A stretch of DNA of 64,000 nucleotides from contig NZ_FOAX01000002.1 of the NCBI RefSeq assembly GCF_900109775.1, forward strand, positions 1 through 64,000, given 5' to 3'. This DNA comes from Pseudoxanthomonas sp. GM95. GTDB taxonomy: Bacteria; Pseudomonadota; Gammaproteobacteria; Xanthomonadales; Xanthomonadaceae. The notes beneath the pieces were generated by a model. It had not been told where the DNA came from. It saw only the letters and a program-made list of their open reading frames with translations, and did no database searches. Below are positions 43,675-62,031 of the stretch, in pieces. The translations under genes were made by a program, and so were the position numbers. How positions within the stretch are numbered: position 1 is the first letter of the stretch; each line of letters begins with the position of its first letter.

Positions 43675-43691
43675 GCATTGCGGCCTCAGGC
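43669..43691. terminator. Hairpin at the convergent HTH/kinase gene ends
   Basis: GCCTGAG and CTCAGGC pair over a nine-base loop and overlap both stop codons. No T tract is present on either strand. Confidence 0.3.

Positions 43692-45007: not shown

Positions 45008-45011
<4 letters not shown>
43686..45011 (-). CDS. NtrY-like sensor histidine kinase
   Basis: A 441-residue membrane kinase with two N-terminal helices (LLLWLMPLGVAAIALPLAL and VGVISAAILLPLAAWVI) and almost no periplasmic loop, a HAMP-like linker, a PAS domain (SMVQHSPVAMLLLAP), the phosphoacceptor His245 in RVISHELNNSLAP, an N box LLNLVKNAHESGGD and G boxes DRGGGM and GTGLGLAL. With so short a loop it probably senses a signal in the membrane or cytoplasm. 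Its ATG overlaps the stop of the regulator gene (ATGA), so the pair is a two-component system. Confidence 0.88.
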
Positions 45012-46348
<1,337 letters not shown>

Positions 46349-46364: not shown

Positions 46365-46730
46365 TTACTGGTGGAGCGCCTTGACGGTCGCGCCGCCTTG
46401 GGTGAGCAGCAGGTGGCTGATGCGATCGGACGCGTCGAAGACGAATTCCACGCGCGCGTCCATGCCGCTGACGCGGAAGGTGGTTTCCGAATCCGGGATC
46501 AGTGCGGACGCCGTGCCGCCTTCGGGCTGCAGCTTCAAGGTGGGGCCTTCGCGCCAGACCTTCAGCGCGATACCGGTGGCGGTGACGTAGCGGCCGCTGT
46601 AGCCATCCAGCGTGCCTTCGGAGACCAGCACGCCGTCGGGCGCCGGCGCGGCCTGCGGTGCGAAGGCGGGCAGACTGCAGCTGGCGGTCAACAGTAACGC
46701 CGCGCAGAAGAAACTCAGGTGTCGTGGCAT
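46365..46730 (-). CDS. Small exported DUF3471-like protein
   Basis: A 121-residue protein with signal peptide (HLSFFCAALLLTASCSLPAFA). The mature part, LDGYSGRYVTATGIALKVW...TLKLQPEGG...FVFDASDRISHLLLTQGG, follows the pattern of DUF3471 domains found at the C terminus of penicillin-binding-protein-like hydrolases. A cysteine lies near the end of the signal (TASC), but the -3 residue is a poor lipobox fit, so lipoprotein status is open. It sits between the last permease and the regulator in the same operon; its role there is unknown. Confidence 0.65.
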   Translation of the reverse strand: MPRHLSFFCAALLLTASCSLPAFAPQAAPAPDGVLVSEGTLDGYSGRYVTATGIALKVWREGPTLKLQPEGGTASALIPDSETTFRVSGMDARVEFVFDASDRISHLLLTQGGATVKALHQ

Positions 46731-46788
46731 GGCAGGCAGCCTCTCGCTTGCGGGAAACGGTGCACAGGATAGCCTTCGTGCGCCATGC

Positions 46789-48033
46789 TCAACCGGCCCG
46801 TGTCGCAATGGCCGGCGGCACGCGCGTGGCGCGCAGGGCAGGGCCAAGCACGGCAATCTGTCCGAGCAGCCACAGCAGCCCTGCGCCCAACGGCAGGTAG
46901 AACAGCGGCAGCCGATCCAGCTCGTACTGGCGCATCAGCAGCAGGTTCAGCGCATACGCCAGGACCATGCCCAGTACCACACCCGCGCCGACGATCATGA
47001 AGTTCTCAGCCTGGAAATGCCGCAGGATGTCCCCGCGCGTGGCCCCGATCGCCCGCCGAATCCCGATCTGCCGCGTGCGCTGCCCCACCCAGAAGTTCGC
47101 CAGCCCGGCGATCCCCAGCGCGGTGACGAAGAGCAGGGCCAGGGAGGAGGCGATGAGCAGGCCAAGCATCGTGACATCGCTCTGAAAGTAGTTGCGTCGA
47201 ACCTGCGTGTAGGTGAGCTGTTGCTCCTCGGCGATTAAGCGCACAGGCCCGGCTTTATCCAGCACTTGTGCAGCCTTATGCAAGATGCGCTGTCTATCAT
47301 GCGGGAGGGTACGCAGGAGGTAGGTAGCAGAGATCCTGGGCGAGCTCTTGGACGTCAGCATTACCAGGGTGTCGTCAGGTCCACCCGAGAGCATCGGTGC
47401 AAGGATGTCATCAATCATGCCTACAACGGGCTGCGGTCCGTTGAATCCGTAGAGCAACTTGCCGACGGGATTCTGTCCCGGCCAGAGGCGCTGCGCCATG
47501 CGACGCGTCACGATGACCGCCTCACCTGCCTTATCCGTGCCGCGCTCTGCTGCAGTAAAGTCCCGTCCGGAGAGCAGATGCAAACCCATAGCGGCGATGA
47601 GATCTGCGGAGCCGGAATATTGGGGCATCGAAACGCAGGAATTAATGCCTTTGATACCATGCGCAGCCTTCGCGCGGTCAAAGTCAGCCTGCGTTGTGCA
47701 CGCGCCCGTGCTTGAGGAATTCCGGGATAGCGGGAGGCTTCCGTTGTCCAAGGCCGTGACTGCTTGAACACCCTGGATCGCAGCCAATAGCGTCAGATCC
47801 GTCTTTCGTTGCGCCTCCGCGTTGGCTCTTTCATCCAATCCGCTGGCCGAGATCAACGACAGCTGATCCTCCGGAAGGCCGGAAGGTATCGTGATGCGTT
47901 CGATACGGCCGACCAGCATGAAGCCCGCATTGATCACGATGGCGCAGGTCAGTGCCACTTGGAGCGTCAGCAGGAATGCGGTCAGCCGATGATGGCGCAG
48001 TGCTGAAAGGATGGGCTTGATAGGCGTCGCCAT
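46789..48033 (-). CDS. FtsX/MacB-type ABC permease B5
   Basis: A 414-residue type-B permease, last of the array. One helix near the N terminus (FLLTLQVALTCAIVINAGFML), a periplasmic MacB_PCD domain of about 230 residues, then three helices of the FtsX domain starting at SDVTMLGLLIASSLALLFV, with the conserved QRTRQIGIRRAIGATRGDILRHF in part after helix 2. Unlike other B members it has a cysteine pair (112 and 133) in the periplasmic domain. Bases here are visibly less GC-rich than in A1-A4. GGAG precedes the ATG, two bases after the A5 stop. Confidence 0.85.
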   Translation of the reverse strand: MATPIKPILSALRHHRLTAFLLTLQVALTCAIVINAGFMLVGRIERITIPSGLPEDQLSLISASGLDERANAEAQRKTDLTLLAAIQGVQAVTALDNGSLPLSRNSSSTGACTTQADFDRAKAAHGIKGINSCVSMPQYSGSADLIAAMGLHLLSGRDFTAAERGTDKAGEAVIVTRRMAQRLWPGQNPVGKLLYGFNGPQPVVGMIDDILAPMLSGGPDDTLVMLTSKSSPRISATYLLRTLPHDRQRILHKAAQVLDKAGPVRLIAEEQQLTYTQVRRNYFQSDVTMLGLLIASSLALLFVTALGIAGLANFWVGQRTRQIGIRRAIGATRGDILRHFQAENFMIVGAGVVLGMVLAYALNLLLMRQYELDRLPLFYLPLGAGLLWLLGQIAVLGPALRATRVPPAIATRAG

Positions 48034-48035
48034 GA

Positions 48036-49349
48036 TCAGACTCCTTTGATCTGAATGGCAGGCGAGATGCGACTGGCACGCCACGCGGGGACCAGTCCGG
48101 CCAGCAGAGTGGCCAGCATGGCGAGCGCGACGGTAGACAGCAGCATCGTCGCGTCCATCTGCGCGATACGCGCATAGTCATCCGGCCGCTGGCGAATGCT
48201 CCACAGACCAAGTTGAGCAAGTCCAATGCCGAGCAGGCCGCCGCTCAGACCGATCAACGCTGCCTCGCAGCCAAGCTGCAACAGGATGTCCTGACTACGT
48301 GCCCCCAGCGCACGACGTACTCCAATCTCCCCACCACGGCGTAGGAACTTTGCGAGCAGCAGCGCCACGATATTGACCAGACAGACTACGAGAAAGCCCA
48401 TTGCGAGCCACAGCTGCAGTTGTATTTCGGAGGGCACTAGTTTGCGATATGCCAGCCAGTCCATTAGGGAATAGAGACGGGTGGCGTCCGGGGCTCGCTC
48501 GAAGCGTCCAATGTCGTGCTGCTGGGCTGCGTAATCGTGCAGGAATCGACGATAGTCTGAGAGCTGCTGCGGCGTATCCAGCTGCACCCAGAACTGCAGC
48601 CAACTTGATACTGGAGACTTCATTAGATCTTTTTCATCCGAGTCAGCCCAGCTCGACTGGCTTCCGGAAATGCCAAGGTGAAGTTCAATGGCAAGTGATA
48701 GCGGAAAGAAGAACTCGTCGGTATCTCCGAAAGACTGTGAGCTGAGGTCGGCATAGAAGCGCGGCTGTGGCGCCCACGGCGAAATGACGCCGATGACACG
48801 GAATATGGTGTCCTTCAGGCGCACGCTTCTGCCAACGACATCGGTCGTCCCGAAGATCTTCATGGCGAGGTCGCGTCGCAATACCACCACACGGGCATGA
48901 TCCGCGTCATCGCGCGGTGTCCAGCCCTGCCCGTGTTCGAAGGGGACGTTGAACATCGCGAAAAAATCAGAGGTCGTAAAACGCCCCGAATGAAATGCGG
49001 GACGCCCCGTGTTCTCCAACGGCCAAACCAGGAGGTAACCGCCGGCCATTGCTGCCTGATGCACAGCTTTTCCATGAGCCATGAGCGCCATTGCATCAGG
49101 CCAAGTCAGGTTATCTGCGGGATTGCCCCAGCGGTTGTCGACCGGATACTTCAACGGCAGCGGATCGATACGCGGATAGAACAGCACGCCGCTCTTCTCC
49201 GGAATCGGATCCTGAGTCATGACATGCAGCACGGTGAGCATCGTCATGCTCGCGCCGATCCCTAAGCCGATGGCGCAGACCATCAAGGCGGTCATCACCG
49301 GCGTGCGGCGCAAGCTGCGCAGGGCCAGGCGGACGTAGTAGCCGATCAA
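48036..49349 (-). CDS. FtsX/MacB-type ABC permease A5
   Basis: A 437-residue type-A permease (LIGYYVRLALRSLRRTPV at the start; GGEIGVRRALGARSQDILLQ in the FtsX domain). I place the start at the TTG 49349, since AAAGGA lies seven bases before it and the sequence then aligns with the MFAYY starts of A1-A3. An in-frame ATG at 49385 overlapping the B4 stop (TGATG) is the alternative. It lacks the two periplasmic cysteines present in A1-A4 (Ser and Trp stand around those sites). Lower GC than the rest of the array marks A5-B5 as a distinct pair. Confidence 0.83.
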   Translation of the reverse strand: MIGYYVRLALRSLRRTPVMTALMVCAIGLGIGASMTMLTVLHVMTQDPIPEKSGVLFYPRIDPLPLKYPVDNRWGNPADNLTWPDAMALMAHGKAVHQAAMAGGYLLVWPLENTGRPAFHSGRFTTSDFFAMFNVPFEHGQGWTPRDDADHARVVVLRRDLAMKIFGTTDVVGRSVRLKDTIFRVIGVISPWAPQPRFYADLSSQSFGDTDEFFFPLSLAIELHLGISGSQSSWADSDEKDLMKSPVSSWLQFWVQLDTPQQLSDYRRFLHDYAAQQHDIGRFERAPDATRLYSLMDWLAYRKLVPSEIQLQLWLAMGFLVVCLVNIVALLLAKFLRRGGEIGVRRALGARSQDILLQLGCEAALIGLSGGLLGIGLAQLGLWSIRQRPDDYARIAQMDATMLLSTVALAMLATLLAGLVPAWRASRISPAIQIKGV

Positions 49350-49384
49350 GATGCAATCCTTTGGCGAAGGTTGGTTGGAAGCCA

Positions 49385-50641
49385 TCACGCGGACCGCGTG
49401 GCGATGGCAGGTGCGATGGCGGCCGCGCGGCGGGCTGGCCCTAGCACGGCGCATTGGCCGAGCGCCCATAGCAGCGTCGCGCCAACAGGCAGATACATCA
49501 GCGGCAGGCGAGGGAGTTCGTAGTACTGCATCAAGCACTGGTTGACCGCGTAGGCCAGTGGCAGGCCGAGGACCAGGCCCAGCGTGGTGAGCAGCAAGTT
49601 CTCGATCTGAAAATGGCGCAGCACCTGCGCACGCGAAGCGCCCAACGCACGGCGGATGCCGATCTGGCGGGTGCGCTGTTCAATCCAGTAGCCGGTCAGG
49701 CTGGCGATGCCAATCAGGGTGATGAGAGTTACGACGGCGCAAACCGAGCCGAGCAGCCAGGCGGCGGCTCGACGCTGCTTGAAGCTGAAATTCCGTACCT
49801 TCTCGTAGGTTTCAACCACCACGGGAATGTCACGCATCAGCTGCGGGCCGAATTCGCGCTGGATGACGCCGGGGATCGCGGCCTTGACGGCTTCGCGCTG
49901 CGCCGGTTCGGTGCGTACCGAGTAAGCCATGCGCGGCATGCGGGTCATGTCGCGCATGGGATAGACCAGTGACTCCTCGGCGTGTCCGTCGTCGAGCTCC
50001 GCCAATTCGTAGCGCAGCAAGTGGCGGACGATCCCCACAACCACGTACTGGCTCTTCTCGTCGCCGCCATCCAGGCGCCCGCCAAGCGCGTGTCCATCCG
50101 GGAAGAATTTGTCGGCCAGCGCCTGGGTGACGATCACCGGGACGATGCCCTGCGCGCCCCGGTTGAACATCCCGCCGCCAGTGACGTAATCGTCCGCATT
50201 GAAGTCGCGGCCCTGGGCCAGTTCCAGGCCCAGCGCCTGGACCAGCCCGTCGCCGGCAAAGCCGGTCGGCGTGATCTCCACGCCCGCCGGACTCCTGAGC
50301 GTCATGGAGAACGACATGGTCTGCCGCATCGGCAGGCCCATGGTGGGGGCGACAGCGCGGACGCCGGGGATGGCCTGCAATGCACGCTGCAGGGCCTGGC
50401 TCTGGGCCGTGGTCCAGCGCGCGTTCTGCAGCATCAGCTGGTCGACCAACAGGATCTCGTTTCTGACGATGCCATCGTCAACCAGCATCGGCCCCAGCTG
50501 CCGCTGTAGCAGGAAAGCGACATTGGTCAGGATGGCGCAGGCCAGCACGATCTGGCCCAGCACCAATAGCGGCATCAGGCGATGGCGCAGCAGGCTGGAA
50601 ACCATCGGCCGCAGCGCGGGCAGGGACAGGATGGCGCTCAT
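49385..50641 (-). CDS. FtsX/MacB-type ABC permease B4
   Basis: A 418-residue type-B permease. The first helix (LMPLLVLGQIVLACAILTNVAFLL) is longer than in its relatives, and the N terminus has an extra SAILSLPALRPMVSSLLRHR. The FtsX part carries IEQRTRQIGIRRALGASRAQ and ends in PAIATRSA like the other B subunits. Its ATG overlaps the A4 stop by four bases (ATGA), the tightest join in the array, which supports an A4-B4 heterodimer. Confidence 0.85.
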   Translation of the reverse strand: MSAILSLPALRPMVSSLLRHRLMPLLVLGQIVLACAILTNVAFLLQRQLGPMLVDDGIVRNEILLVDQLMLQNARWTTAQSQALQRALQAIPGVRAVAPTMGLPMRQTMSFSMTLRSPAGVEITPTGFAGDGLVQALGLELAQGRDFNADDYVTGGGMFNRGAQGIVPVIVTQALADKFFPDGHALGGRLDGGDEKSQYVVVGIVRHLLRYELAELDDGHAEESLVYPMRDMTRMPRMAYSVRTEPAQREAVKAAIPGVIQREFGPQLMRDIPVVVETYEKVRNFSFKQRRAAAWLLGSVCAVVTLITLIGIASLTGYWIEQRTRQIGIRRALGASRAQVLRHFQIENLLLTTLGLVLGLPLAYAVNQCLMQYYELPRLPLMYLPVGATLLWALGQCAVLGPARRAAAIAPAIATRSA

Positions 50642-51963
50642 TGGCTTTTCACCTGTAGCGCGGGCTCAAGCCGTGCTGCGCGCCAGGAGGGGATCACCCC
50701 GACCAGCAGGCCGGTCAATGCGGCGAGCAGCAACAGCGCCAGGAACAGCGCAGGATTCAGGTGTGCCTGTTCGGTGTAGCCCTGGTCCTGCTGGCGGATG
50801 AGCCACAGGCCCAGCAGGGTCAGCGGCAGGGCCAGCACGCCGCCGATCACGCCCGCCGCGCCGGCCTCCACCAGGCAGGGAATGACGATGGCCCGGCGCG
50901 TCGCGCCCAGCACGCGGCGCACGCCCAGTTCGCCCGAGCGGCGCAGGAAGCGCGCGGCCAGCAAGCCGGCGACGTTGACCATGCACAGCGCCAGCAGGCC
51001 CGCGGCCAGCCACAGGTGGAGGCGCACGTTGTCCGGCACCACGCGGTTGGCGGTCAGCCATTGCGGCACGCTGTAGAGACGGGAAGAAGCTGCGCGCGGG
51101 AACGCACCTGCGGCATGGCGATCCTGCGCGTAGGTCTGCAAAGCATCACCAAAGGCTGCGATGGCCGATGGCGTCGTCAACTCGGCCCAGACCTGAAGGA
51201 AGCGGCAGTTCTTTTCGTCGAGCGCATCAAAGCGGTAGCCGCCCCCGCCGTGATCGCAATCCTGGCTGCTCATCGGAGGCACGCCGGCGTCGATGGCGGC
51301 ATGCAATGGGAGAAAGGCCTTCACCGCGAAGCGATCCCCCCATGCGGGTTCACCGTCCTGCAGGGCGTAGACGTGCGGCTGCGGATCCCACTCCCGGCTG
51401 ATCCCGATGACGCGAAACATCGCCTTGCCGATGCGGACGCTCTGCCCGGTGCCATCGGGTGTGCCCAGCAACTGCTGGCTGACCGAGCTTGCGAGGATCA
51501 CCACGGGCGCGCGTTCGCGTTCTTCCTGCGGGGTCCATTGGCGACCGTGCAGCAGCGGCACGCCAAACATCGACAGCATTGGTCCGCTGGCCAGCACCGC
51601 GCGCGGGTTGGTGCGCTTGCCGGCGGGGGTGTGAATCTCCAGCTCGGTGGGGACCAGCGCGGTCTGCCGGACCTGCGGTTGCGCGGCGGCGATGGCGTCG
51701 GCGTCTTCCAGCTTCCACAGGCGCGGCGGATTGCTGATGTCGTCGCTGCGACCGTCGCCGGTGCTGTCCCGGCTGCGCGAATCCACCCACCCCAGGTATA
51801 GCTGCTGGCTCAGCCCTGGCAGCGGATCGACCGACAACATTGCCAGCAAACTCAGCATCGTCATCACCGAGGCCAGCCCCAGCCCGAGGGTGAGGATGGC
51901 CAGCAGCATCGTGCGCGGGTGGCGGCGCAGGCCGCGCAGTCCGGTTTCGATGGCGTAGTTCAT
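50638..51963 (-). CDS. FtsX/MacB-type ABC permease A4
   Basis: A 441-residue type-A permease and the most divergent A member at its N terminus (MNYAIETGLRGLRRHPRTML). The periplasmic domain keeps a cysteine pair (236 and 253) but with a longer Gly-rich loop between them (CDHGGGGYRF). The FtsX domain has RRSGELGVRRVLGATRRAIV and ends in PALQVKSQ. The gap to B3 upstream is 39 bases. Confidence 0.85.
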   Translation of the reverse strand: MNYAIETGLRGLRRHPRTMLLAILTLGLGLASVMTMLSLLAMLSVDPLPGLSQQLYLGWVDSRSRDSTGDGRSDDISNPPRLWKLEDADAIAAAQPQVRQTALVPTELEIHTPAGKRTNPRAVLASGPMLSMFGVPLLHGRQWTPQEERERAPVVILASSVSQQLLGTPDGTGQSVRIGKAMFRVIGISREWDPQPHVYALQDGEPAWGDRFAVKAFLPLHAAIDAGVPPMSSQDCDHGGGGYRFDALDEKNCRFLQVWAELTTPSAIAAFGDALQTYAQDRHAAGAFPRAASSRLYSVPQWLTANRVVPDNVRLHLWLAAGLLALCMVNVAGLLAARFLRRSGELGVRRVLGATRRAIVIPCLVEAGAAGVIGGVLALPLTLLGLWLIRQQDQGYTEQAHLNPALFLALLLLAALTGLLVGVIPSWRAARLEPALQVKSQ

Positions 51964-52002
51964 CGTGTGGGCGATCCTTCGCGTGGTGCTTCCATGAAGT
52001 GC

Positions 52003-53226
52003 TTACGCCGCGCGCGTCGCAATCGCCGGCGGTACGGCGGCGGCCTTGCGGGCAGGCCAGAACACGGCGATCTGCCCCAGTAGCCACAGCAGCACCGCGC
52101 CGACGGGCAGGTACATCAGCGGCAAGCGTGGCAGTTCGTACTTGCTCATGAGCAGCTGGTTGATGCCGAAGGCCAGCAGCATGCCCAGGACGATGCCGGC
52201 GCTGACCAGCAGCAGGTTCTCGGCCTGGAAGTAGCGCAGGATCTGTCCGCGCGTGGCGCCCAGGGCGCGCCGCACGCCGATCTGGCGCGTGCGTTGCTGC
52301 ACCCAGAAGCTGGTCAGCCCGACGATGCCGCCTGCGGTGACCAGCAGCAGCACCAGGCACACGCTCACCAGCAGCCAGGCCATCGTGCGGTCGTTGTTGT
52401 AATAGGTCTGGCGCGCCTGCTCGGCGGTGCGTGCTTCCTCGCGCGACACCAGTCGCGTCGGGCCGCGTTTGGACAGTGTATCCAGCGCGGCAGTAAGCAC
52501 CGCGGCGCGCTGGCCTGGGTCGGCCACGCGCAGCAGGTAAGTGCCGCGCGTGTAGGGCACGTTGGTCGGAAGCAGCACGGCGTATACGTACTGGGCCGAA
52601 CGCCCGTTGTCGCGTGGCTGCACCAACCGGTCGACCACGCCCACCACCGGATTAGTGCCATCGATGTAGAGCGTCTTGCCCACGGCGTTCTGCCCGGGGA
52701 ACAGCTGCTGGGCCAGTGCCTGACTCAGGATCACCGGCGTGTTGCTACCGGCTTCTGACGCGGGGTTGGAGCGGTAGTCGCGGTACTCGTCGCCATTGAA
52801 GTCGCGTCCCGACACCACCTTCAACCCAAGCGTCTGCAGGATCTGGCCGCCGCCCAGGTAGACCGTCTCGGTCGCCGTCGGTTTGGCCTGGTCGGGCTGC
52901 AGGTTGATGCTGGTGACGCCAAACGACGAACCGAACACGGTCTGGTTGATGATCGAGGCCGAAGTGACGCCGGGGATCGCGCGCAAGCCGGCTAGATCGT
53001 CGCGAGTGACCGCCAATGGATCGCTGTCCTGGGCGATACCGCTGACGCTGACCTCGACCAGATGCGTTTCGTCCAGGCCGGTGGGTCGCTGCATGCGTTC
53101 CAGTCGCTGGCCGATAAGGAACAGCGCGTTGCACACCACCGCGCAGCTGAAGGCGATCTCCAGCACGATCAACGCGGTGGCGATCTTGTGCCGGCGCAAC
53201 GTGGACAGGATGGGGCGCAGTTCCAT
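52003..53226 (-). CDS. FtsX/MacB-type ABC permease B3
   Basis: A 407-residue type-B permease: helix 1 in TALIVLEIAFSCAVVCNALFLI, periplasmic domain without cysteine pair, and a three-helix FtsX domain with VQQRTRQIGVRRALGATRGQ. Its last 38 codons are almost identical at DNA level to those of B2 (52052-52165 against 54611-54724, one difference in 114 bases), while the periplasmic domains of B2 and B3 differ strongly. It begins nine bases after the A3 stop. Confidence 0.86.
   Translation of the reverse strand: MELRPILSTLRRHKIATALIVLEIAFSCAVVCNALFLIGQRLERMQRPTGLDETHLVEVSVSGIAQDSDPLAVTRDDLAGLRAIPGVTSASIINQTVFGSSFGVTSINLQPDQAKPTATETVYLGGGQILQTLGLKVVSGRDFNGDEYRDYRSNPASEAGSNTPVILSQALAQQLFPGQNAVGKTLYIDGTNPVVGVVDRLVQPRDNGRSAQYVYAVLLPTNVPYTRGTYLLRVADPGQRAAVLTAALDTLSKRGPTRLVSREEARTAEQARQTYYNNDRTMAWLLVSVCLVLLLVTAGGIVGLTSFWVQQRTRQIGVRRALGATRGQILRYFQAENLLLVSAGIVLGMLLAFGINQLLMSKYELPRLPLMYLPVGAVLLWLLGQIAVFWPARKAAAVPPAIATRAA
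52052..52165 (-). repeat. 114-base tract nearly identical to 54611-54724
   Basis: The 3' part of B3 matches the 3' part of B2 with one difference (A/G) in 114 bases, counted directly. Flanking sequence diverges abruptly, as after gene conversion or recent unequal exchange. Confidence 0.93.
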
Positions 53227-53235
53227 GGGATCTCC

Positions 53236-54540
53236 TTACTGCGACTTGAGCTGGATGGCGGGCGTGACCTGCATGGCGCGCCACGCGGGCAGCGCCCCGG
53301 CTACCAGGCTGCTCAGCAGCGCCAGGACGAACGTCGTCAGCAGCATGGTCGTGTCCATGTGTGCCAGCGACGCGTAATCGGCCGGCTGCCGGCGCACCAC
53401 GGCCAGTCCCAGCAGCGCCAGGAGTAGGCCCAGCGCGCCGCCGCTCAGGCCGACGATGCCGGACTCGACCAGGTATTGCGCGAACACCGTGAGCCGGCTG
53501 GCGCCAAGTGCGCGGCGCACGCCGATCTCGCTACTGCGGCGCAGGAACTTGGCCAGCAGCAGTCCGATGGTGTTGAGCAGGCAGATCAGCAGAAAGCCCA
53601 GTGCCAGCCACAGTTGCAGGCGCACGTCCGATGGCACGACGCGGTTGTGGTCCAGCCACTGCATCACGTCGCGCAGCTGCACCTCACCCGCATGACGGAA
53701 GCGGCCCAGGTCGTGCTGGCGGGCGATGTAGTTGTCCAGGTAGCGGCGATAGCCGGCGGCATCCGAGGCACTGCCCAGCTCGGTCCAGTACTGCAGGAAA
53801 GCACAGGGGGCCGAAAGCGCGGTGCGGCCCTCCGGCGCGTCGCCCCAGCACCACATCGAACCACTCAGCGCCAGCTTCAGGTCCACCGCGGTGGAAAAGG
53901 GGATGAAGATGTTCTCGCTGTCGCCGAACTCGTTGTTGGTCAGGTCGTAGAAGCGCGGATTGACCGCCCAGGTATCGAGTACGCCGATCACGCGCAGCCC
54001 TTGGCCATCGAGCTGGATCATGCGGCCGGTGCTGTCGGCACCGCCGAACAGGGTCTGGTTGAGCTTGGAAGAAATCACCGCCACCCTCGCGTGGTCACCA
54101 TCGTCGCGCGTCGACCATGGCCGCCCATAGCGCAGCGGCACGTCGAACATCGGGAAGAAGTCGGCTGTGGTGTAGCGAGATTCGACCCGGAACGCCGATT
54201 GCCCGGCCGTGGTCGGCGTGATCACCGCGCGCCCGGCGGACATCATCGCCTGGCGCTTGCCGTGCGCTTCCTTGAGCAGTGTCTCGGCGTCGATGCGGGT
54301 CATCTGCAGCGATTCGCCTGACTCGTCGGGTTCGTACTGGCTGTCGGGCAGCACGTTCATCTGCACTGTGAACAGACGGGCGCTCTTGCCCGGGATCGGA
54401 TCGCCGGAGATGACATGGAACACCGTCAGCGTGGTCATCGACGCGCCGATGCCCAGCGCGATGGTCAGCACCATCAGCGCGGTCAACGCCTTGTTGCGGC
54501 CGAAGCTGCGCAGGGCCAGGTTGAGGTAGTAGGCGAACAT
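53236..54540 (-). CDS. FtsX/MacB-type ABC permease A3
   Basis: A 434-residue type-A permease. N-terminal MFAYYLNLALRSFGRNKALT leads into helix 1, the periplasmic domain has cysteines 231 and 246 (MWCWGDAPEG...SAPC), and the FtsX domain shows RRSSEIGVRRALGASRLT. The last codons and the junction to B3 (53229-53283) are identical over 55 bases to the A2-B2 junction (55780-55834), showing that an A-B unit was duplicated. Confidence 0.86.
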   Translation of the reverse strand: MFAYYLNLALRSFGRNKALTALMVLTIALGIGASMTTLTVFHVISGDPIPGKSARLFTVQMNVLPDSQYEPDESGESLQMTRIDAETLLKEAHGKRQAMMSAGRAVITPTTAGQSAFRVESRYTTADFFPMFDVPLRYGRPWSTRDDGDHARVAVISSKLNQTLFGGADSTGRMIQLDGQGLRVIGVLDTWAVNPRFYDLTNNEFGDSENIFIPFSTAVDLKLALSGSMWCWGDAPEGRTALSAPCAFLQYWTELGSASDAAGYRRYLDNYIARQHDLGRFRHAGEVQLRDVMQWLDHNRVVPSDVRLQLWLALGFLLICLLNTIGLLLAKFLRRSSEIGVRRALGASRLTVFAQYLVESGIVGLSGGALGLLLALLGLAVVRRQPADYASLAHMDTTMLLTTFVLALLSSLVAGALPAWRAMQVTPAIQLKSQ

Positions 54541-54561
54541 GTGCAGCTCCTGCGCGGGCGC

Positions 54562-55776
54562 TTACGCGCTGCGCGTGGCGATGGCCGGCGGCACCGACGC
54601 GGCGCGACGTGCAGGCCAGAACACGGCGATCTGCCCCAGTAGCCACAGCAGCACCGCGCCGACGGGCAGGTACATCAGCGGCAGGCGTGGCAGTTCGTAC
54701 TTGCTCATGAGCAGCTGGTTGATGGCATAGGCCAGGACCATGCCCAGCACGATGCCGACCGTGGCCAGCAGGAAGTTCTCGGTCTGGAAGTAGCGCAGAA
54801 TCTGTGTCCTGGTCGCACCCAAGGCGCGGCGCACGCCGATCTGGCGCGTGCGTTGGGCCACCCAGAAGCTGGCCAGGCCGATGATGCCCAGCGCGGTCAC
54901 CACCAGCAGCGCGACGCTCACGGCGACCAGCATCCAGGCCATCGCGCGGTCGTTGCGGTAGAACTTGGCGCGCATGTCTTCCAGCGTGCCGGTGGCGTTC
55001 TTGCTGACGATGCGGGTCGGGCCGTACGTGGCCAGCACTTTCTTCGCCTGCTCAAGGATGGCCTGGCGCTGGCTGGCATCGGTCACGCGGACCGCGTACA
55101 CGCCGCCATCCATGTAGCTGAAGCGCGAGGGGAACAGCATCGACATGTCGTATTCCGCCGATGGGCCGGCATCGCGCGGCTTGGGCAGGTGTTCGATGAT
55201 GCCGACCACACGATGCGGCTGTTTGCCGAAGACATACATCGACTTGCCGATGGCCGACTGGTCCGGGAACAACCGCTGCGCCAGCGCGCGCGTCAGGATG
55301 ACGGCGGAGTACTCGTTGGTGTCCGAATCGACGTACTCGGATGCGTTGAAGTCGCGGCCTTCGAGCAGCTTCAGGCCCAGGGTCTTGATGCCATCCTCGG
55401 CCACCATGTAGTTGGTGGTGGTCATGGTGGCGTCGTCCTGGTCCGGGCGCAGCTTGATGCTGCTCATCCACACCGAGTTGCCGAAGGGCGCCTGGTTGAC
55501 CGTGGTGGCCGACGCCACGCCGGGGATGGCGCGCAGGCTGTCCAGGTCGGCGCGGGTGACGGCCTTCGCGTCGGCGTCCTCGCTGATGCCATTGGTGCGC
55601 ACGAACAGCAGGTGCGCTTCGTCCATGCCGCTGGGGCGATGCATGTGGTCCAGGCGGTTGCCGATCAGGAACAGCGCATTGCAGACGATCGCGCAGCTCA
55701 GGGCGATCTCCAGCACGATCAACAGCGCGGCGGTCTTGTGGCGCAACAGCGTGGACAGGATGGGGCGCAGTTCCAT
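54562..55776 (-). CDS. FtsX/MacB-type ABC permease B2
   Basis: A 404-residue type-B permease starting MELRPILSTLLRHKTAALLI, with helix 1 in LIVLEIALSCAIVCNALFLI and a FtsX domain with VAQRTRQIGVRRALGATRTQ. N-terminal and C-terminal ends are close to B3, whereas the middle, which faces the periplasm, is its own. It starts ten bases after the A2 stop. Confidence 0.86.
   Translation of the reverse strand: MELRPILSTLLRHKTAALLIVLEIALSCAIVCNALFLIGNRLDHMHRPSGMDEAHLLFVRTNGISEDADAKAVTRADLDSLRAIPGVASATTVNQAPFGNSVWMSSIKLRPDQDDATMTTTNYMVAEDGIKTLGLKLLEGRDFNASEYVDSDTNEYSAVILTRALAQRLFPDQSAIGKSMYVFGKQPHRVVGIIEHLPKPRDAGPSAEYDMSMLFPSRFSYMDGGVYAVRVTDASQRQAILEQAKKVLATYGPTRIVSKNATGTLEDMRAKFYRNDRAMAWMLVAVSVALLVVTALGIIGLASFWVAQRTRQIGVRRALGATRTQILRYFQTENFLLATVGIVLGMVLAYAINQLLMSKYELPRLPLMYLPVGAVLLWLLGQIAVFWPARRAASVPPAIATRSA
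54611..54724 (-). repeat. 114-base tract nearly identical to 52052-52165
   Basis: Partner of the B3 tract described at 52052; it encodes the last two helices' turn (MSKYELPRLPLMYLPVGAVL) shared by B2 and B3. Confidence 0.93.
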
Positions 55777-55786
55777 GATGATCTCC

Positions 55787-57091
55787 TTACTGCGACTTGA
55801 GCTGGATGGCGGGCGTGACCTGCATGGCGCGCCAGGCGGGCACCATGCCGGCCAGCAGGCTGCTGGCGATGGCCAGCACGAAGGTCCCCAGCAGCATCGC
55901 GGTATCCAGGTGGGCCAGCGCGGCGTACTCGGTGGGCTGGTGGCGCACGGCCCACAGGCCGAGCAGGGCGATGCCCAGACCCAGTACGCCGCCGGCCAGG
56001 CCGACCGTGCCGGCTTCCACCAGGCATTGCTTGAAGATGTCCGCGCGCGAGGCGCCTAGTGCGCGGCGCACGCCGATCTCGCCGCCACGCCGCAGGAACT
56101 TGGCCAGCAGCAGGCCCACGGTGTTGAGCAGGCACACCGCCAGGAAGCCCAGCGCCAGCCAGGCCTGCAGGCGCACGTCGCTAGGTACCACCTGGTTGAA
56201 ATCCAGCCAGGTCATCACGTCGCTCAGGCGCACGTTGCTCGGCCGCTGGAAGCGCCCGGCGGCACGCTGCTGGTCCGAATAGTTGGACAGGTACGCACGA
56301 TAGTCGGCCGCCTTCTGCGCCGAATCCAGCTGCGCCCAGTACTGCACCCAGATGCACGGCGCATTGAGGTCGGTGCTGTCGCCATCGCTGTCGCTCCAGC
56401 AGTTCATGTTGCCGCTGTTGCTCCACTTCAGGTCCATTGCCGCGGAGAAGGGCACGTAGATCTCTTCCGGATCGCCGCTGTAGCGGTTGTTGGTCAGGTC
56501 GTAGAAGCGCGGGTTGGGGTTCCAGTCGCCCAGCACGCCGATCACGCGGAACGCGACCTTGCCCAGCCGCAGCGTGCGGCCGGTGGGATCGGCATCGCCG
56601 AACAGCTTCTGGCTGAGCTCGCTGCTGATCACCGCCACGCGCGCGCGGGCGGCGTCATCGCTCGCGCTCCAGGCCTGGCCGTGTGCGAACGGCGCGTCGA
56701 ACATCGGGAAGAAATCGGCGGTGGTGTAGCGCGCCTGCAGGATGAAAGGCGCCAGCCCCGAGGTCTCCGGCTCCACGGCGGCGCTGCCGGCGGACATCAT
56801 CGCCTGGCGGTCGGCGCGCTTTTCGCGCAACAGGGTTTCGGCATCGAAGCGCGTCAGCTGCGGCGCCGGATCGCCGCCCGGCGTGTAGCCATTCATCGGG
56901 AACGGATCCAGCTGCACGTAGAACAGCTTGTCGCTCTTGGCCGGGATCGGATCGCCGGACAGCACGTGGAACACGGTCAGCGTGGTCATCGAGGCGCCGA
57001 TGCCCAGCGCCACGGCCAGCACCATCAGCGCGGTCAGCACCTTGTTGCGCTTGAAGCTGCGCACCGCCAGATTGAAGTAGTAGGCAAGCAT
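55787..57091 (-). CDS. FtsX/MacB-type ABC permease A2
   Basis: A 434-residue type-A permease (MLAYYFNLAVRSFKRNKVLT). Periplasmic cysteines are at 231 and 246 (NCWSDSDGDS...APC), inside an acidic loop. The FtsX domain has RRGGEIGVRRALGASRADIF, and its end reads AMQVTPAIQLKSQ as in A3. The true start is the ATG at 57091; the frame's extension further upstream lies inside B1. The gap to B1 is 26 bases. Confidence 0.86.
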   Translation of the reverse strand: MLAYYFNLAVRSFKRNKVLTALMVLAVALGIGASMTTLTVFHVLSGDPIPAKSDKLFYVQLDPFPMNGYTPGGDPAPQLTRFDAETLLREKRADRQAMMSAGSAAVEPETSGLAPFILQARYTTADFFPMFDAPFAHGQAWSASDDAARARVAVISSELSQKLFGDADPTGRTLRLGKVAFRVIGVLGDWNPNPRFYDLTNNRYSGDPEEIYVPFSAAMDLKWSNSGNMNCWSDSDGDSTDLNAPCIWVQYWAQLDSAQKAADYRAYLSNYSDQQRAAGRFQRPSNVRLSDVMTWLDFNQVVPSDVRLQAWLALGFLAVCLLNTVGLLLAKFLRRGGEIGVRRALGASRADIFKQCLVEAGTVGLAGGVLGLGIALLGLWAVRHQPTEYAALAHLDTAMLLGTFVLAIASSLLAGMVPAWRAMQVTPAIQLKSQ

Positions 57092-57117
57092 GGTCGACTC
57101 CGGATGCAGTGGGCGCC

Positions 57118-58353
57118 TCAGGCGCTGCGCGTGGCGATGGCTGGCGGGACCGCGGCGGCGCGGCGCGCGGGCCACAGCACCGAGGCCTGGCCCAGCAGCC
57201 ACAGCACCAGCGCGCCGATCGGCAGGTACAGCAGCGGCAGCCGCGGCAGTTCGTACTGGCGCATGAGCAGCTGGTTGAGCGCGTAGGCCAGGCCCATGCC
57301 CAGCGCGATGCCCAGCGTCACCAGCAGGAAATTCTCGGTCTGGAAGTAACGCAGGATCTGGCCCTTGGTCGCGCCCAGCGCGCGGCGCACGCCGATCTGG
57401 CGCGTGCGTTGGGCCACCCAGAAGCTGGCTAGGCCGATGATGCCCAGCGCGGTCACCAGCAGCAGCGCCACGCACAGGGTGATCAGCAGCCCCATCATGT
57501 CGCGGTCATCGCTGAAGTAATCGGTGCGCCATTCGTCAAAGGTCTTCTGCTGCATCACCAGGCGGTTGGGATTGACGCGATTGATCGCATCGACCGCGTC
57601 ATGCAGCACCTGCGCGCGCTGGGCCGGGTCCTTCACCCGCAACACGTAGTAACCGCCGCTGGTGTAGTTCTGGCGCAGCGGCATCAGCATCGAATAGCTG
57701 GTGTTGTTGGCCATCAGGTTGGGGCGGCGCAGGCGCTCGACCACGCCCACGATCATCAGCGGGATGTTGGCCATGTAGACCTGCTTGCCCACGGCCGATT
57801 CGCCGGGGAACAGCTTCTCGGCCGCCTCGCGACTGACGATCAGCGACAGGGTGCGCGCGGGCACGCCGCTGCTGGTGCCCAGCTGGGTCATCAGCTCGGA
57901 CCAGTCGAGATATTCGTCGGGGTTGAAATCGCGCCCGGCGATCACGTTCAGGCCCAGCGTGCGCACGGCGCCTTCGTCGCCGGTGTACATGGCCGCGCTC
58001 AGTGTCGGGATCTGTTGATCGGGCTTGACCGCCAGCGAGGAGTTGTTGGAGCCACGCCGGAACGGCAGCTGGTTGACGATGGCCACCTGGGTCACGCCTG
58101 GCACGGCGCGCAGGGCGGCCAGGTCTTCCTGGCTGATCGCGTTGGGGTTGGCATGTTTGCCCACGCCAGTGAGATACAGGGTGACCAGCTCGTGCTCGGC
58201 GACGCCGCTGGTTTCCCGCAGGCTTTCCCAGCGCTGGGACACGATGAACAACGCGTTGCAGATGATCGCGCAAGCCAGGGCGATCTCCACCACGATCAAC
58301 GCGGCAGCGGTCTTGTGGCGTCGCAGGGTCGAAAGGATCGGGCGGATTTCCAT
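57118..58353 (-). CDS. FtsX/MacB-type ABC permease B1
   Basis: A 411-residue type-B permease: MEIRPILSTLRRHKTAAALI, helix 1 in IVVEIALACAIICNALFIV, a periplasmic domain without cysteines, and FtsX helices beginning at DMMGLLITLCVALLLV, with VAQRTRQIGVRRALGATKGQ. It is separated from A1 by 151 bases that hold a REP-like repeat, the widest gap among the permeases. Confidence 0.86.
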   Translation of the reverse strand: MEIRPILSTLRRHKTAAALIVVEIALACAIICNALFIVSQRWESLRETSGVAEHELVTLYLTGVGKHANPNAISQEDLAALRAVPGVTQVAIVNQLPFRRGSNNSSLAVKPDQQIPTLSAAMYTGDEGAVRTLGLNVIAGRDFNPDEYLDWSELMTQLGTSSGVPARTLSLIVSREAAEKLFPGESAVGKQVYMANIPLMIVGVVERLRRPNLMANNTSYSMLMPLRQNYTSGGYYVLRVKDPAQRAQVLHDAVDAINRVNPNRLVMQQKTFDEWRTDYFSDDRDMMGLLITLCVALLLVTALGIIGLASFWVAQRTRQIGVRRALGATKGQILRYFQTENFLLVTLGIALGMGLAYALNQLLMRQYELPRLPLLYLPIGALVLWLLGQASVLWPARRAAAVPPAIATRSA

Positions 58354-58376
58354 GGGTCTCTCCGTGAAACTTGGCG

Positions 58377-58498
58377 CCCCTCTCCCCTCGGGAGAGGGGT
58401 TGGGGTGAGGGTTGGTGAAGGATGTGGTGGCTCGGACGTCTTTGATTCCGCCGAACCCTCATTCACCCTTCGGGCACCTTCTCCCAAAGGGAGAAGGA
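58377..58498. repeat. REP-type inverted pair inside the permease operon
   Basis: CCCCTCTCCC-TC-GGGAGAGGGG with a TTGGGGTGAGGGT tail is mirrored by AACCCTCATTCACCC and CTTCTCCC-aaa-GGGAGAAG. This is the familiar dispersed double-hairpin of many high-GC proteobacteria. It separates A1 from B1 and would fold in the mRNA. Confidence 0.8.
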
Positions 58499-58504
58499 TT
58501 CAAC

Positions 58505-59809
58505 TCACTGCGTCTTCAACTGCACCGCTGGCGTGATCTGCATCGCGCGCCACGCCGGCAGCAATCCCGCCACCAGGCTCGCGCACACCGCCAGCACGAA
58601 GGTCATCAGCAGCATCGACAGGTCCAGCTGCGCCAGCGCCGCATAGCCGGTCGGGCGGTGGCGCACGGCCCATAGCCCCAGCTCGGCCAGGCCTAAGCCG
58701 AGTACGCCGCCGGCCAGGCCGATGCTGCCGGCTTCCACCAGGCACTGCTTGAAGATCTCGGTGCGGCTGGCGCCCAGCGCACGGCGCACGCCGATCTCGC
58801 CGCTGCGGCGCAGGAACTTCGCCAGCAGCAGGCCCACGGTGTTGACCAGGCAGACCAGCAGGAAGCCCATCGCCAGCCACAGCTGCAGGCGCACATCGCC
58901 CGGCACCGCGCCGTTGTAGTCCAGCCAGTCCATGACGTTGCGCAGGCGGGTGTTCGGCGGGCGCTGGAAACGGCCGCTCTCATGCTGCTGCTGCGAATAG
59001 CGATCCAGGTAGGCCTTGAAGTCATCCGCCTTCGAAGCGCTGTCCAGTTCCACCCAGTACTGGGCGAACGCGCACGGCGCGCCACGCGCGGTGCCGTCGA
59101 TGGTGGCCTCCGGGCCGTAGCAGTTCATGCTGCCGCTGCGCGACTGGCCCAGGCCGATCGCCGTCTGGAACGGCTCGAACACCTGCTCGTCGGTGTTGTA
59201 GGTGCCCACGTTCAAGTCGTAGAACAGCGGCTTGGGCGCCCAGTCGTCGATAACCCCGACGATCTGGAAATCATGGCCGTCGATGCGCAGCGTCTTGCCG
59301 GTGCTGTCGGCGCCATTGAACAACTTGTCGTTGAGCACCTTGGCGATCACCACCACGCGCGCCTGCCCATCGTCGTCGCTGGCCGACCACGCGCGGCCGA
59401 ACAGGAACGGCACGTCGAACATCGTGAAGAAATCCGGCGTGGTGTAGCGCCCGTCCAGCATGAAGGGCTTGAGCGCGCCACCTGCAGGTTCGACCGTGAT
59501 ACTGCCGCCGGTCATCAGCACCTGGCGCTTGGCCTGCTTCTGTTGCAGCAGCGTCTCGCCGTCGTAGCGGCTGATGTCCGACTGCGGCTCGTCGCCGGGC
59601 GTGTAGCCGGCCAGCATTTCCGGATCCACCTGCACATGGAAGAGCCGCTCGCTCTTCTGCGGGATCGGATCGCCCGACAGTACATGGAACACCGTCAGCG
59701 TGGTCATCGACGCCCCGATGCCCAGCGCGATCGCCAGCACCATCAGCGCGGTCAACACCTTGTTGCGGCCGAAGCTGCGCAAGGCCAGGTTGCAGTAGTA
59801 GGCGAACAT
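58505..59809 (-). CDS. FtsX/MacB-type ABC permease A1
   Basis: A 434-residue type-A permease, first of the array, 29 bases after the ATPase gene. MFAYYCNLALRSFGRNKVLT precedes helix 1 (VLAIALGIGASMTTLTVFHV), the periplasmic domain carries Cys230 and Cys246 (NCYGPEA...GAPC), and the FtsX domain has RRSGEIGVRRALGASRTEIF. Proteins of this family form dimers on a MacB/LolD-type ATPase and work as mechanotransmitters rather than as channels. Confidence 0.87.
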   Translation of the reverse strand: MFAYYCNLALRSFGRNKVLTALMVLAIALGIGASMTTLTVFHVLSGDPIPQKSERLFHVQVDPEMLAGYTPGDEPQSDISRYDGETLLQQKQAKRQVLMTGGSITVEPAGGALKPFMLDGRYTTPDFFTMFDVPFLFGRAWSASDDDGQARVVVIAKVLNDKLFNGADSTGKTLRIDGHDFQIVGVIDDWAPKPLFYDLNVGTYNTDEQVFEPFQTAIGLGQSRSGSMNCYGPEATIDGTARGAPCAFAQYWVELDSASKADDFKAYLDRYSQQQHESGRFQRPPNTRLRNVMDWLDYNGAVPGDVRLQLWLAMGFLLVCLVNTVGLLLAKFLRRSGEIGVRRALGASRTEIFKQCLVEAGSIGLAGGVLGLGLAELGLWAVRHRPTGYAALAQLDLSMLLMTFVLAVCASLVAGLLPAWRAMQITPAVQLKTQ

Positions 59810-59838
59810 GCGTGGGCTCCGGGATGGCGGGGTGGAGC

Positions 59839-60558
59839 TCAGGCTTGCGTGGACAGTGCGGGTTCGGCCGCGGCCATCAGCGCCGCTTCGCGCACCAGGT
59901 CGGTGGCCTGGCCGTCGACGATGTGCACGTTGCGCTGGGCGCGGGCGGCCAGTTCGGGGTCGTGGGTCACCATCACGATGGTGCTGCCCTGGGCGTTGAT
60001 CTCTTCCAACAGTTCCATCACGCCGCGGGCCATCTGCGAGTCGAGGTTGCCGGTCGGTTCGTCGGCCAGCAGCAGGCGCGGGCTGCCGGCCAGGGCGCGG
60101 GCGATGGCAGCGCGCTGCTGCTGGCCGCCGGAGAGTTCGGCCGGGTAGTGCTTCATGCGCGAACCCAGGCCCACGCGCTCCAGCGACTCGGTGATGCGCT
60201 GCTTGCGCTCGGCCGCGGCCATGCCGCGATAGCGCAGCGGCACGTCGACGTTGTCGAACAGGTTGAGATCGGGGATCAGGTTGAAGCTCTGGAAGATGAA
60301 GCCGATCTTCTGGTTGCGCAGCTTGCTGCGCGCGTTGTCCGACAGGTTGGACACGTCTTCGCCATCGAGCTTGTAGGTGCCCGAGGTGAAGGTCTCCAGC
60401 AGGCCGGCGATGTTGAGGAAGGTGGTCTTGCCCGAGCCGGAAGGACCGGTGACGGCGACGAATTCGCCTTCCTTCACGTGCAGGTCCAGCGTGCGCAGAG
60501 CGTGTGTCTGCACCTGCTCGGTGCGGAAGACCTTGGAGACGGCGTGCATGTCGAGCAT
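59839..60558 (-). CDS. MacB/LolD-type ABC transporter ATPase
   Basis: A 239-residue ATPase with Walker A GPSGSGKTTFLNIAG, Q loop FIFQSFNLIPDL, signature LSGGQQQRAAIARALA, Walker B LLLADEPTGNLD and switch VTHDPE. FQSFNLIPDLNLFDNV is typical of the LolD/MacB/FtsE subgroup that drives FtsX-like permeases. A 20-residue Ala-rich tail follows the core. It is the only ATPase gene in an operon with ten permease genes, so all pairs presumably share it. AAGGA stands before the ATG. Confidence 0.93.
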   Translation of the reverse strand: MLDMHAVSKVFRTEQVQTHALRTLDLHVKEGEFVAVTGPSGSGKTTFLNIAGLLETFTSGTYKLDGEDVSNLSDNARSKLRNQKIGFIFQSFNLIPDLNLFDNVDVPLRYRGMAAAERKQRITESLERVGLGSRMKHYPAELSGGQQQRAAIARALAGSPRLLLADEPTGNLDSQMARGVMELLEEINAQGSTIVMVTHDPELAARAQRNVHIVDGQATDLVREAALMAAAEPALSTQA

Positions 60559-60600
60559 GGGAATGTCCTTGTCAGTGGAGCGGGTCTGTGGAACGTGGTG

Positions 60601-60667: not shown

Positions 60668-60682
60668 GAAAGCGGGGATGGA

Positions 60683-61975
60683 TCAGTGCACGGTCACGCG
60701 TGGCGCATCGCCGAACTGGTCGGCGCCGGAGACGACCACGCGGTCGCCTTCCTTCAGGCCGGACAGCACTTCGGTTTCGGACAGGCTCGACACGCCCAAC
60801 TGCACTGGCTGGCGCTGGGCGCTGGAGCCGGCCATGACGTAGGCGTAGCGGCCGCCGGACTGTTCGACGAACGGGCCGCGCTCGACCTTCAGGACGTTCT
60901 TGCGCGTGTCCAGCAGGATGCGCGCGCTCATGCGCTGGCTCTGGCGCAGGCCGGGCGGCTGCTTGCCGTCGAAGCGCACGCGCGCGGTGACTTCACCGGC
61001 GACGACCTCAGGCGAGACGGCGGAAATCTTGCCGGGGAAAGGTTCGCCACTGCCGCTGGTGAGCTGCGCCGGTACGCCGATCGCGAGATCGCGGGCGAAG
61101 CTCTCCGGCACCTTGATCTCGACCTCGAACTTGGACAGATCCACCACCGACAGGATCGGGGCGTTGATCGCCACGTTGGTGCCCTGCGCGATCTGCACCT
61201 GGCCGACTTGGCCATCGAACGGCGCGCGCAGGGTCAGCGCGTCGACCTGGCGCTGCAGTTCTTCCACGACCGCGTCCTGGCGCTGGGCCAGCAGCGCCTT
61301 GTTGCGCGCGTCCAGCTGCGCGCCCTGCTGCTTGAGCGCGGCGTCCTGCTGGGCGTGCTGCAGTTCGATCTCGGCCTTCTTCAGCGTGTCCTGGGCCTTG
61401 GCCAGGTCCACCTGCGGCAGGGCGCCGGCGTCGTAGGCGCGCTGGTAACGCTCGACATCGCGTTCGGCGGCCTGGCGGTCGATCTTGCCCTGGTCGATCA
61501 GCTTGCTGGCTTCCGAGCGCGCCTGGGAGACATCCAGCGTCGCGCGGCTGGCCTCGGCCTGCAGGCCAGCCAGAGTGGATTCTTCCTGGGCCAGCTTGCT
61601 GCGCAGCGCCGGGCTGTCGATCACGGCCAGCGGATCGTCCTTCTTGACCACGTCGCCGGCCACGACCTTGAGCGTGACCGTCCCGCCGTCGATGGCGTAC
61701 AGGGTCGGGCTGTTGGCGGTGATGACGCGGCCATCGGCGGCCAGGTCGCGGACCAGATCGCCGCGGGTCACCGTGGCGATGCGCACGCGGCTGGCGTCGA
61801 ACGAGCGTCCACCCGCGGCCCAGCCCATCACCACCCACACCAGCGCGGCGGCCAGCACGGCCACGCCGCCGCCGATCAGGCCCCAGCGCTTCCAGCGGGC
61901 GCCGCTGCCGGTCTCGACCACGATGTCCTGGGCGGCGGTGTCGCGGATGCGGAAGGGGTTGTCGGTCTGCTGCAT
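60683..61975 (-). CDS. Periplasmic adaptor (HlyD/MacA-type membrane fusion protein)
   Basis: A 430-residue adaptor with one N-terminal membrane helix (RWGLIGGGVAVLAAALVWVVM), a lipoyl-like half motif at VVAGDVVKKDDPLAVIDSPAL, a long alpha-helical hairpin (about residues 115-225, rich in Ala, Gln, Lys), the second lipoyl half (LRAPFDGQVGQVQIAQGTNV) and beta-barrel and proximal domains. Such adaptors link an inner-membrane ABC unit to a TolC-type duct; no TolC gene is in the window. It is the first gene of the operon, about 30 bases from the predicted sigma-54 start site. No clear ribosome site is seen. Confidence 0.88.
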   Translation of the reverse strand: MQQTDNPFRIRDTAAQDIVVETGSGARWKRWGLIGGGVAVLAAALVWVVMGWAAGGRSFDASRVRIATVTRGDLVRDLAADGRVITANSPTLYAIDGGTVTLKVVAGDVVKKDDPLAVIDSPALRSKLAQEESTLAGLQAEASRATLDVSQARSEASKLIDQGKIDRQAAERDVERYQRAYDAGALPQVDLAKAQDTLKKAEIELQHAQQDAALKQQGAQLDARNKALLAQRQDAVVEELQRQVDALTLRAPFDGQVGQVQIAQGTNVAINAPILSVVDLSKFEVEIKVPESFARDLAIGVPAQLTSGSGEPFPGKISAVSPEVVAGEVTARVRFDGKQPPGLRQSQRMSARILLDTRKNVLKVERGPFVEQSGGRYAYVMAGSSAQRQPVQLGVSSLSETEVLSGLKEGDRVVVSGADQFGDAPRVTVH

Positions 61976-62015: not shown

Positions 62016-62031
62016 CGCAGGCGGCGTGCCA
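62016..62031 (-). promoter_or_regulatory. Sigma-54 (-24/-12) promoter for the adaptor-ATPase-permease operon
   Basis: On the minus strand TGGCACGCCGCCTGCG matches the consensus TGGCACG-N4-TTGCW with GG and GC at exactly the required ten-base separation and only two mismatches, both outside the essential doublets. Transcription would start near 62005, 30 bases before the adaptor ATG. The operon itself encodes an NtrC-type activator. Confidence 0.75.

Follow-up and report, generated by a model that had tools for sequence, protein, structure and literature searches.

One ATPase followed by five alternating A-B pairs of MacB-like permeases in Pseudoxanthomonas: a probable set of alternative heads on a shared export motor

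Could a single ATPase serve ten permeases? Passages in reviews of type VII ATP-binding cassette (ABC) transporters describe one permease pair per ATPase pair. In a locus of Pseudoxanthomonas sp. GM95 one MacB/LolD-type ATPase gene is followed by ten FtsX-type permease genes. We analyzed this locus in a window of 64,000 nucleotides (nt), positions 1 to 64,000 of contig NZ_FOAX01000002.1, to which all coordinates below refer. The answer that we consider probable is that five alternative heterodimeric permeases, each made of one A-type and one B-type subunit, share a single ATPase dimer and a single adaptor by turns, with periplasmic heads that would serve different cargo. The adaptor and transporter genes are the following:

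60683..61975, minus strand: periplasmic adaptor, membrane fusion protein of the MacA/RND-MFP type (TIGR01730 RND_mfp, 132.5 bits, cut-off 94.9; PF16576, PF13437)
59839..60558, minus strand: ATPase of the LolD/MacB/DarD type (PF00005; motifs intact)
58505..59809, minus strand: permease A1 (PF12704 and PF02687; ADOP first half)
57118..58353, minus strand: permease B1 (PF12704 and PF02687; ADOP second half)
55787..57091, minus strand: permease A2 (PF12704 and PF02687; structure predicted with a mean local distance difference test score (pLDDT) of 83.2, best PDB match MacB 5gko)
54562..55776, minus strand: permease B2 (PF12704 and PF02687; predicted structure, mean pLDDT 86.6, best PDB match MacB 5gko)
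53236..54540, minus strand: permease A3 (PF12704 and PF02687)
52003..53226, minus strand: permease B3 (PF12704 and PF02687)
50638..51963, minus strand: permease A4, the most divergent A (PF12704 and PF02687; 4-nt overlap with B4)
49385..50641, minus strand: permease B4 (PF12704 and PF02687)
48036..49349, minus strand: permease A5, with a TTG start (PF12704 and PF02687)
46789..48033, minus strand: permease B5 (PF02687 only; ADOP second half)

An earlier reading of the letters and open reading frames (the sequence-only reading) had proposed one ATPase and ten intact permeases of alternating type, and all 11 frames are indeed intact, lie on the minus strand and follow strict A-B alternation, with the proposed lengths of 434, 434, 434, 441 and 437 residues for A and 411, 404, 407, 418 and 414 for B in transcription order. 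Its C-terminal motifs recur in every permease (Q-x-K in five of five A, PAIATR in five of five B). Its N-terminal motifs hold for the first three pairs, F/L-A-Y-Y in A1 to A3 and M-E-x-R-P-I-L-S-T-L in B1 to B3, but not for A4 (MNYAIE), A5 (LIGYY), B4 or B5. The extent that it gave, 46789 to 60558, takes in the ATPase and the pairs, but the unit is larger: since the order adaptor-ATPase-pairs-regulator-kinase recurs in other genomes, we count in it the adaptor, a promoter-like site, a DUF3471-like gene, a response regulator and a histidine kinase. The operon thus spans 62031 to 43686 on the minus strand (adaptor, ATPase, five A-B pairs, DUF3471-like gene, sigma-54 regulator, kinase), with intergenic gaps of -4 to 58 nt except between adaptor and ATPase (124 nt) and between A1 and B1 (151 nt).

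What kind of permeases are these? PF02687 (FtsX) matches all ten and PF12704 (MacB_PCD) nine, B5 being the exception; A1 shares 35-65% identity with its four A-type paralogs and 21-24% with the five B-type proteins, and the membrane parts and a cytoplasmic motif are common to all pairs. In an NCBIfam scan covering six of the ten permeases (three A, three B), all six matched the 803-position model of the ADOP permeases (TIGR03434), the A proteins at positions 5-401 and the B proteins at 410-802. ADOP permeases are, however, one fused chain, and the locus permeases score far under the ADOP cut-off (137-202 bits vs 622.3). A search of the genus with the same model split A-like and B-like genes into the same halves among the matches listed, and with the B profile the second half of fused permeases scores 82-87 bits and the first half 9-17. 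MacB came top when solved structures were searched with the A and B profiles, and for the predicted folds of A2 and B2 MacB 5gko came first, with LolC and LolE scoring lower. The LolC/LolE model TIGR02212 gave at most 27.7 bits against a cut-off of 362.45 in the six scanned proteins. Because profiles and predicted folds match MacB best, the permeases are, on this evidence, of a predicted MacB-like type split into subunits of heterodimer type. The sequence-only reading had described five LolC/E-like heterodimers; its heterodimers gain indirect support from the ADOP halves and from the co-inheritance described below, but we dropped the likeness to LolC/E, since MacB is nearer by profile, predicted fold and the MacA-type adaptor. 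A second, paralogous system, consisting of an adaptor, an ATPase, a fused permease of 812-862 residues and a sigma-54-type regulator, was seen in four genomes of the genus (L039, L040, L041 and L042, in G023, G001, G016 and G002); these are the fused permeases with which the profiles were compared.

We compared separate A and B trees built from 219 pairs in 121 loci, excluding unpaired B genes and weak ones (<250 bits); the multi-pair subset comprised 135 pairs in 37 loci after removal of the duplicate loci L109, L143, L114, L117, L108 and L144. Single-pair duplicates may persist among the 121 loci and in the head comparison below, with the multi-pair counts unaffected. In the 37 multi-pair loci, the nearest pair in another locus was identical for A and B in 1484 of 1484 close comparisons (397 expected by chance), which are not independent because the loci are related. 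Distances in the A and B trees correlated at 0.894, whereas shuffling the B labels within loci 1000 times gave 0.284 at most. In a joined A+B tree the pairs cluster by type across genera, several deeper forks being weakly supported. Each A is inherited jointly with its B.

These data bear on whether any A could combine with any B, so that ten genes would yield as many as 25 permeases. The membrane parts and the cytoplasmic motif shared across pairs would allow such mixing, and the unpaired B genes and third permease of some loci would suit it, but the co-inheritance is something that free mixing would not need, though it is compatible with it, and an apparent natural exchange described below covers an A together with the head of its B. 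We regard combinatorial mixing as improbable.

How did one locus come to hold five pairs? It is present in 37 of 38 genomes of the genus, the window's included; the remaining one, G025 (2.0 Mb), gave only two weak matches in the ADOP search. Pair number per genus locus is one in 28, two in 3, four in 1, five in 2 (including the window) and six in 3, the counts for G014 and G015 being minima because these loci sit at contig ends. Across the Lysobacteraceae the module recurs mostly with one pair, and the counted range of 1 to 6 pairs per locus bears out the expectation that pair number would vary between species. When named genomes were scanned with the A profile, 531 encoded relatives came up, and we retained the best 79 loci. 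More than one A is present in 15 of the 79 (Luteimonas, Lysobacter, Stenotrophomonas, Pseudoxanthomonas and Xanthomonas), the maximum outside Pseudoxanthomonas being five (in Xanthomonas sp. F10); where these loci are complete, they keep the order adaptor-ATPase-(A-B)n-regulator-kinase. A family-wide search, in which at most six candidates per genome were scored and copy counts served only for choosing loci, returned a strong B match in 259 of 297 genomes. We took up 23 further loci, of which 4 came from other families and 19 were picked because several B genes or a complete array were suspected there. G312 is the largest, with six A and seven B, and in 7 of the 23 the last permease gene is a weak B-like one of 216-239 bits. 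At class level 7 of 274 genomes gave a strong match; 4 of the 7 belong to other families and have a single pair. Because single-pair loci are widespread in the family, the five-pair array is an expansion of a common module.

We then asked where the pairs differ. At 70-80% identity of the membrane part, the heads of paralogs within one genome are 49.3% identical for A (n=19) and 35.7% for B (n=25), compared with 58.2% (n=1130) and 47.3% (n=1141) between single-pair loci; heads thus tend to diverge more than membrane parts, a trend rather than the outcome of a formal test, in line with the diversified periplasmic heads of the sequence-only reading. The ratio of nonsynonymous to synonymous substitution rates (dN/dS) was below 1 in 20 of 20 ortholog comparisons (range 0.08 to 0.58), indicating that the ortholog pairs tested are under purifying selection. 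These results bear on simple gene dosage, in which duplicated pairs would all perform the same function: membership of one operon and a common fold fit it, but the recurrence of pair types in several genera, the excess divergence of heads and the purifying selection on the ortholog pairs tested do not, and we consider it very improbable. Gene conversion was tried as a source of the conserved membrane parts and rejected, as the nearest relative lay in the same genome in 0 of 135 cases for A and for B, membrane part and head alike, although short tracts would escape this comparison.

One pair of loci appears to record an exchange of heads. Identity between the close relatives G034 and G035 is 91-98% in adaptor, ATPase, regulator, kinase and pairs 2-6 (ATPase 97.5%, adaptor 95.8%), but drops to 74% in A1 and 75% in B1. 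The stretch that differs runs from about the end of the ATPase gene to roughly 800 nt into B1, near the boundary between head and membrane part, and the first pairs of the two genomes occupy different places within one type in the joined tree. The simplest reading is that A1 and the B1 head were replaced together on a constant motor.

Several observations weigh against a tidy picture of paired subunits with exchangeable heads. When all comparisons are counted, including cases without a true counterpart, A and B agree in 3928 of 4860. Pairing is not absolute: besides their pairs, G216 (L117) and G312 have a full-scoring B with no A to match it, in G216 as two adjacent B genes with no space for an A between them, and 19 of the 28 single-pair genus loci contain a third permease, 'C' (e.g., L069:7512-8735), of about 400 residues, weakly B-like (120-180 bits), which lies past B, ahead of the regulator, and has no A of its own; both of the two 'C' genes checked against Pfam have FtsX and MacB_PCD. 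At 80-90% membrane-part identity the head gap is smaller (A 56.1 vs 60.7; B 42.9 vs 49.6). In G034 and G035 the adaptor-ATPase spacer also differs, and the replaced pair has dN/dS values of 0.50 and 0.58. The template modeling scores (TM-scores) of the predicted folds over the query are only modest (0.58 for A2, 0.64 for B2). Finally, the A profile scores both halves of fused permeases about equally (12-33 bits) and cannot separate them, so the placement of A as the first half rests on the ADOP model.

Is the ATPase of the locus really the motor for all pairs? Its motifs are present (GPSGSGKT, Walker A; LSGGQ, signature; LLLADEPT, Walker B; GNLD, D-loop; THD, H-loop), and its best NCBIfam match is DarD (267 bits), followed by LolD (227) and MacB (223), none above its own cut-off. 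Some pairs might instead use ATPases encoded elsewhere and merely be co-transcribed here, a reading for which six other ATPases in the genome, scoring >120 bits against this one, could be candidates. Each of the six, however, has its own FtsX permease in place, the closest is 52% identical, and single-pair relatives keep this ATPase beside the pair; we give this reading the least credence of all. The other eight FtsX matches in the genome lie at six places, each also with an ATPase match of >120 bits: a fused MacB-like frame; a single permease beside an ATPase; two permeases at one place; a frame of 857 residues that FtsX matches twice; a short frame resembling FtsX; and an ATPase and permease separated by about 3 kb in which adaptor-like genes lie. 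The dedicated extra ATPases that would have spoken against sharing were therefore not found among the six; 40 weaker matches (<=114.5 bits) were assumed to belong to other ABC classes.

We therefore return to five alternative heterodimers on one motor. MacB is nearest in sequence and predicted fold, and the adjacent adaptor is of the MacA type; from this we infer that the locus works like MacAB with a heterodimeric permease, as a tripartite exporter of the MacAB type (type VII ABC) whose permease set has been expanded. One ATPase dimer would engage a single A-B heterodimer at any moment through the conserved motif on the cytoplasmic side, and the same adaptor and a TolC-type outer-membrane channel encoded elsewhere would complete the machine; no OEP match was found in the locus, and 25 matches to PF02321, 24 of them above the cut-off, lie elsewhere in the genome. 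Because the heterodimers differ mainly in their periplasmic heads, the periplasmic cargo that they accept would differ, with amphiphilic peptides or molecules of that sort as the probable substrates, and one sigma-54 promoter would make all parts together under the linked two-component system. If true, a locus in which one ATPase and one adaptor face up to six heterodimers, and in which heads seem to have been swapped in nature while the motor stayed constant, would allow cargo recognition to be separated directly from energy coupling.

How does this compare with known systems? With MacAB-TolC the locus shares the adjoining adaptor, the ATPase, the FtsX permease with a MacB-type periplasmic core and the best solved-structure match, but here the ATPase is a gene of its own rather than fused to the permease, the permease is a two-protein one, and there are five sets. 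Passages of a MacB review describe MacB as a homodimer, name permease homodimers, heterodimers and fused forms, and mention separate ATPases in the wider family (PMC5985334). ADOP permeases resemble the locus in their many copies per genome, with 28 and 33 given for Dyadobacter in part of one report (PMC11573002). The ATPase and, weakly, the adaptor recall the darobactin exporter DarBCD (DarD and DarC, respectively), but all matches are under cut-off (DarD 267 vs 375, DarC 55 vs 450, DarB 28 vs 700 bits). To our knowledge, ADOP genes lack ATPase neighbors. LolCDE likewise combines a heterodimeric permease with a separate ATPase, but the locus is nearer MacB in fold and sequence, has a MacA-type adaptor and carries five pairs instead of one. 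One ATPase serving several transporters is described, in an excerpt, for MsmK (PMC4519317), whose systems, however, are sugar importers with separate permease sets. SmaCDEF of Stenotrophomonas maltophilia was considered as a member and rejected because its published quantitative PCR primers fall outside this locus: the best match of the first, with two mismatches, is at 4369826, outside L149 (4118265-4139563), with none in a second genome, the second has no match in L149, and the stretches around the first-primer matches (L187, L188) showed no A, B, C, ATPase, adaptor, regulator or kinase match. Among the matches listed, we found no description of a multi-pair FtsX array in the open-access literature.

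What would switch the operon on? Its remaining features are as follows:

62016..62031, minus strand: sigma-54 (-24/-12) promoter-like site TGGCACGCCGCCTGCG, 40 nt upstream of the adaptor start, score 20/22
46365..46730, minus strand: small DUF3471-like protein with a signal-like start (PF11954, 22.7 bits, under the cut-off of 29.3)
45008..46348, minus strand: sigma-54 response regulator (PF00072, PF00158, PF02954)
43686..45011, minus strand: histidine kinase with two membrane helices and a very short loop between them (PF02518)

The promoter-like site is the only one scoring >=20 on the operon strand within 43500-62300, with one on the opposite strand, at 52283. Among 100 relatives, eleven duplicate loci having been left out, 99 have a site of >=20/22 within 250 nt of the adaptor gene, compared with 0 of 100 ATPase, 0 of 95 kinase, 2 of 98 regulator, 5 of 152 B and 15 of 152 A genes, and with 7 of 2000 shuffled adaptor stretches. 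Across the entire window, a simple pattern search that allowed one mismatch found 7 sites against 8.39 expected, a chance level, so that the weight of the site lies in its position and conservation. Internal sigma-54 promoters before A genes were considered and rejected: all 15 sites lie 204-249 nt upstream, and 14 are one sequence judged by position to be ATPase coding. The genome has two RpoN matches, and passages of a 2025 survey connect the FtsX-like permease family with sigma-54 (PMC12316311); the linked regulator would act on the promoter-like site.

The kinase raises a further question, namely what it senses. A simple hydropathy scan places its helices at residues 9-25 and 37-53. The same scan of 110 distinct kinases of such loci found, within the first 130 residues, two segments in 99 and three in 11, with a median loop of 10 residues and a maximum of 16 between the first two helices, some values being negative (to -8) because the segments overlapped. 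By hydropathy, then, the kinase has no extracellular sensing domain; a possible cytosolic PAS domain (PF13188) scores 21.9 bits against a cut-off of 21.8. This topology is suggestive of kinases that sense through a partner, like BceS with BceAB, and a kinase almost without a periplasmic part permits a reading of transporter-coupled sensing. BceAB-BceRS likewise sets a type VII transporter beside a two-component system, but is Gram-positive with one fused permease. We know of no adaptor or sigma-54 control in BceAB-BceRS.

Flux sensing as in that system would make the pairs mainly sensors for the linked kinase, with export secondary. The regulator and kinase that follow the pairs in the complete family loci examined, the short kinase loops and the example of BceS, which lacks a sensing domain and in passages of two papers needs BceAB for activation (PMC10314905, PMC7828314), all favor it. 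The possible PAS domain, however, may do the sensing, the adaptor speaks for real export, the loops come from a scan that returned some negative lengths, and for the single-pair loci G456 and G483 of other families the stretch retrieved contains no regulator or kinase of this kind. We regard flux sensing as a serious but doubtful possibility. More tentative, and in our judgment somewhat less likely, is a hub for both sensing and export, in which up to six interchangeable A-B heads would share one ATPase, one adaptor and one sensorless kinase; an engaged head would set the ATPase cycling, the kinase would read this and the operon would be turned on from the sigma-54 promoter. Heads would be gained, lost and exchanged as A-B cassettes, so that the repertoire of compounds could change while motor and signaling stay. 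The locus may in this respect be a Gram-negative test case for transporter-coupled sensing.

Several minor features complete the locus. Nothing exceeded the Rfam gathering scores within 43000-62500, and one sigma-70 promoter and two terminators were found, fewer than the shuffled means of 2.4 and 8.4. A gene similar to the DUF3471-like one occupies the same position in some relatives. By eye, the A1-B1 gap (58354-58504, 151 nt) resembles an interspersed repeat, the frame across it reading SPQPLSRGERG, and a small frame just past the kinase gene (43297-43674) resembles an IS3-type transposase subunit. The operon is flanked at 39665-41080 and 62170-63999 by what we take to be glmU-like and glmS-like genes, respectively.

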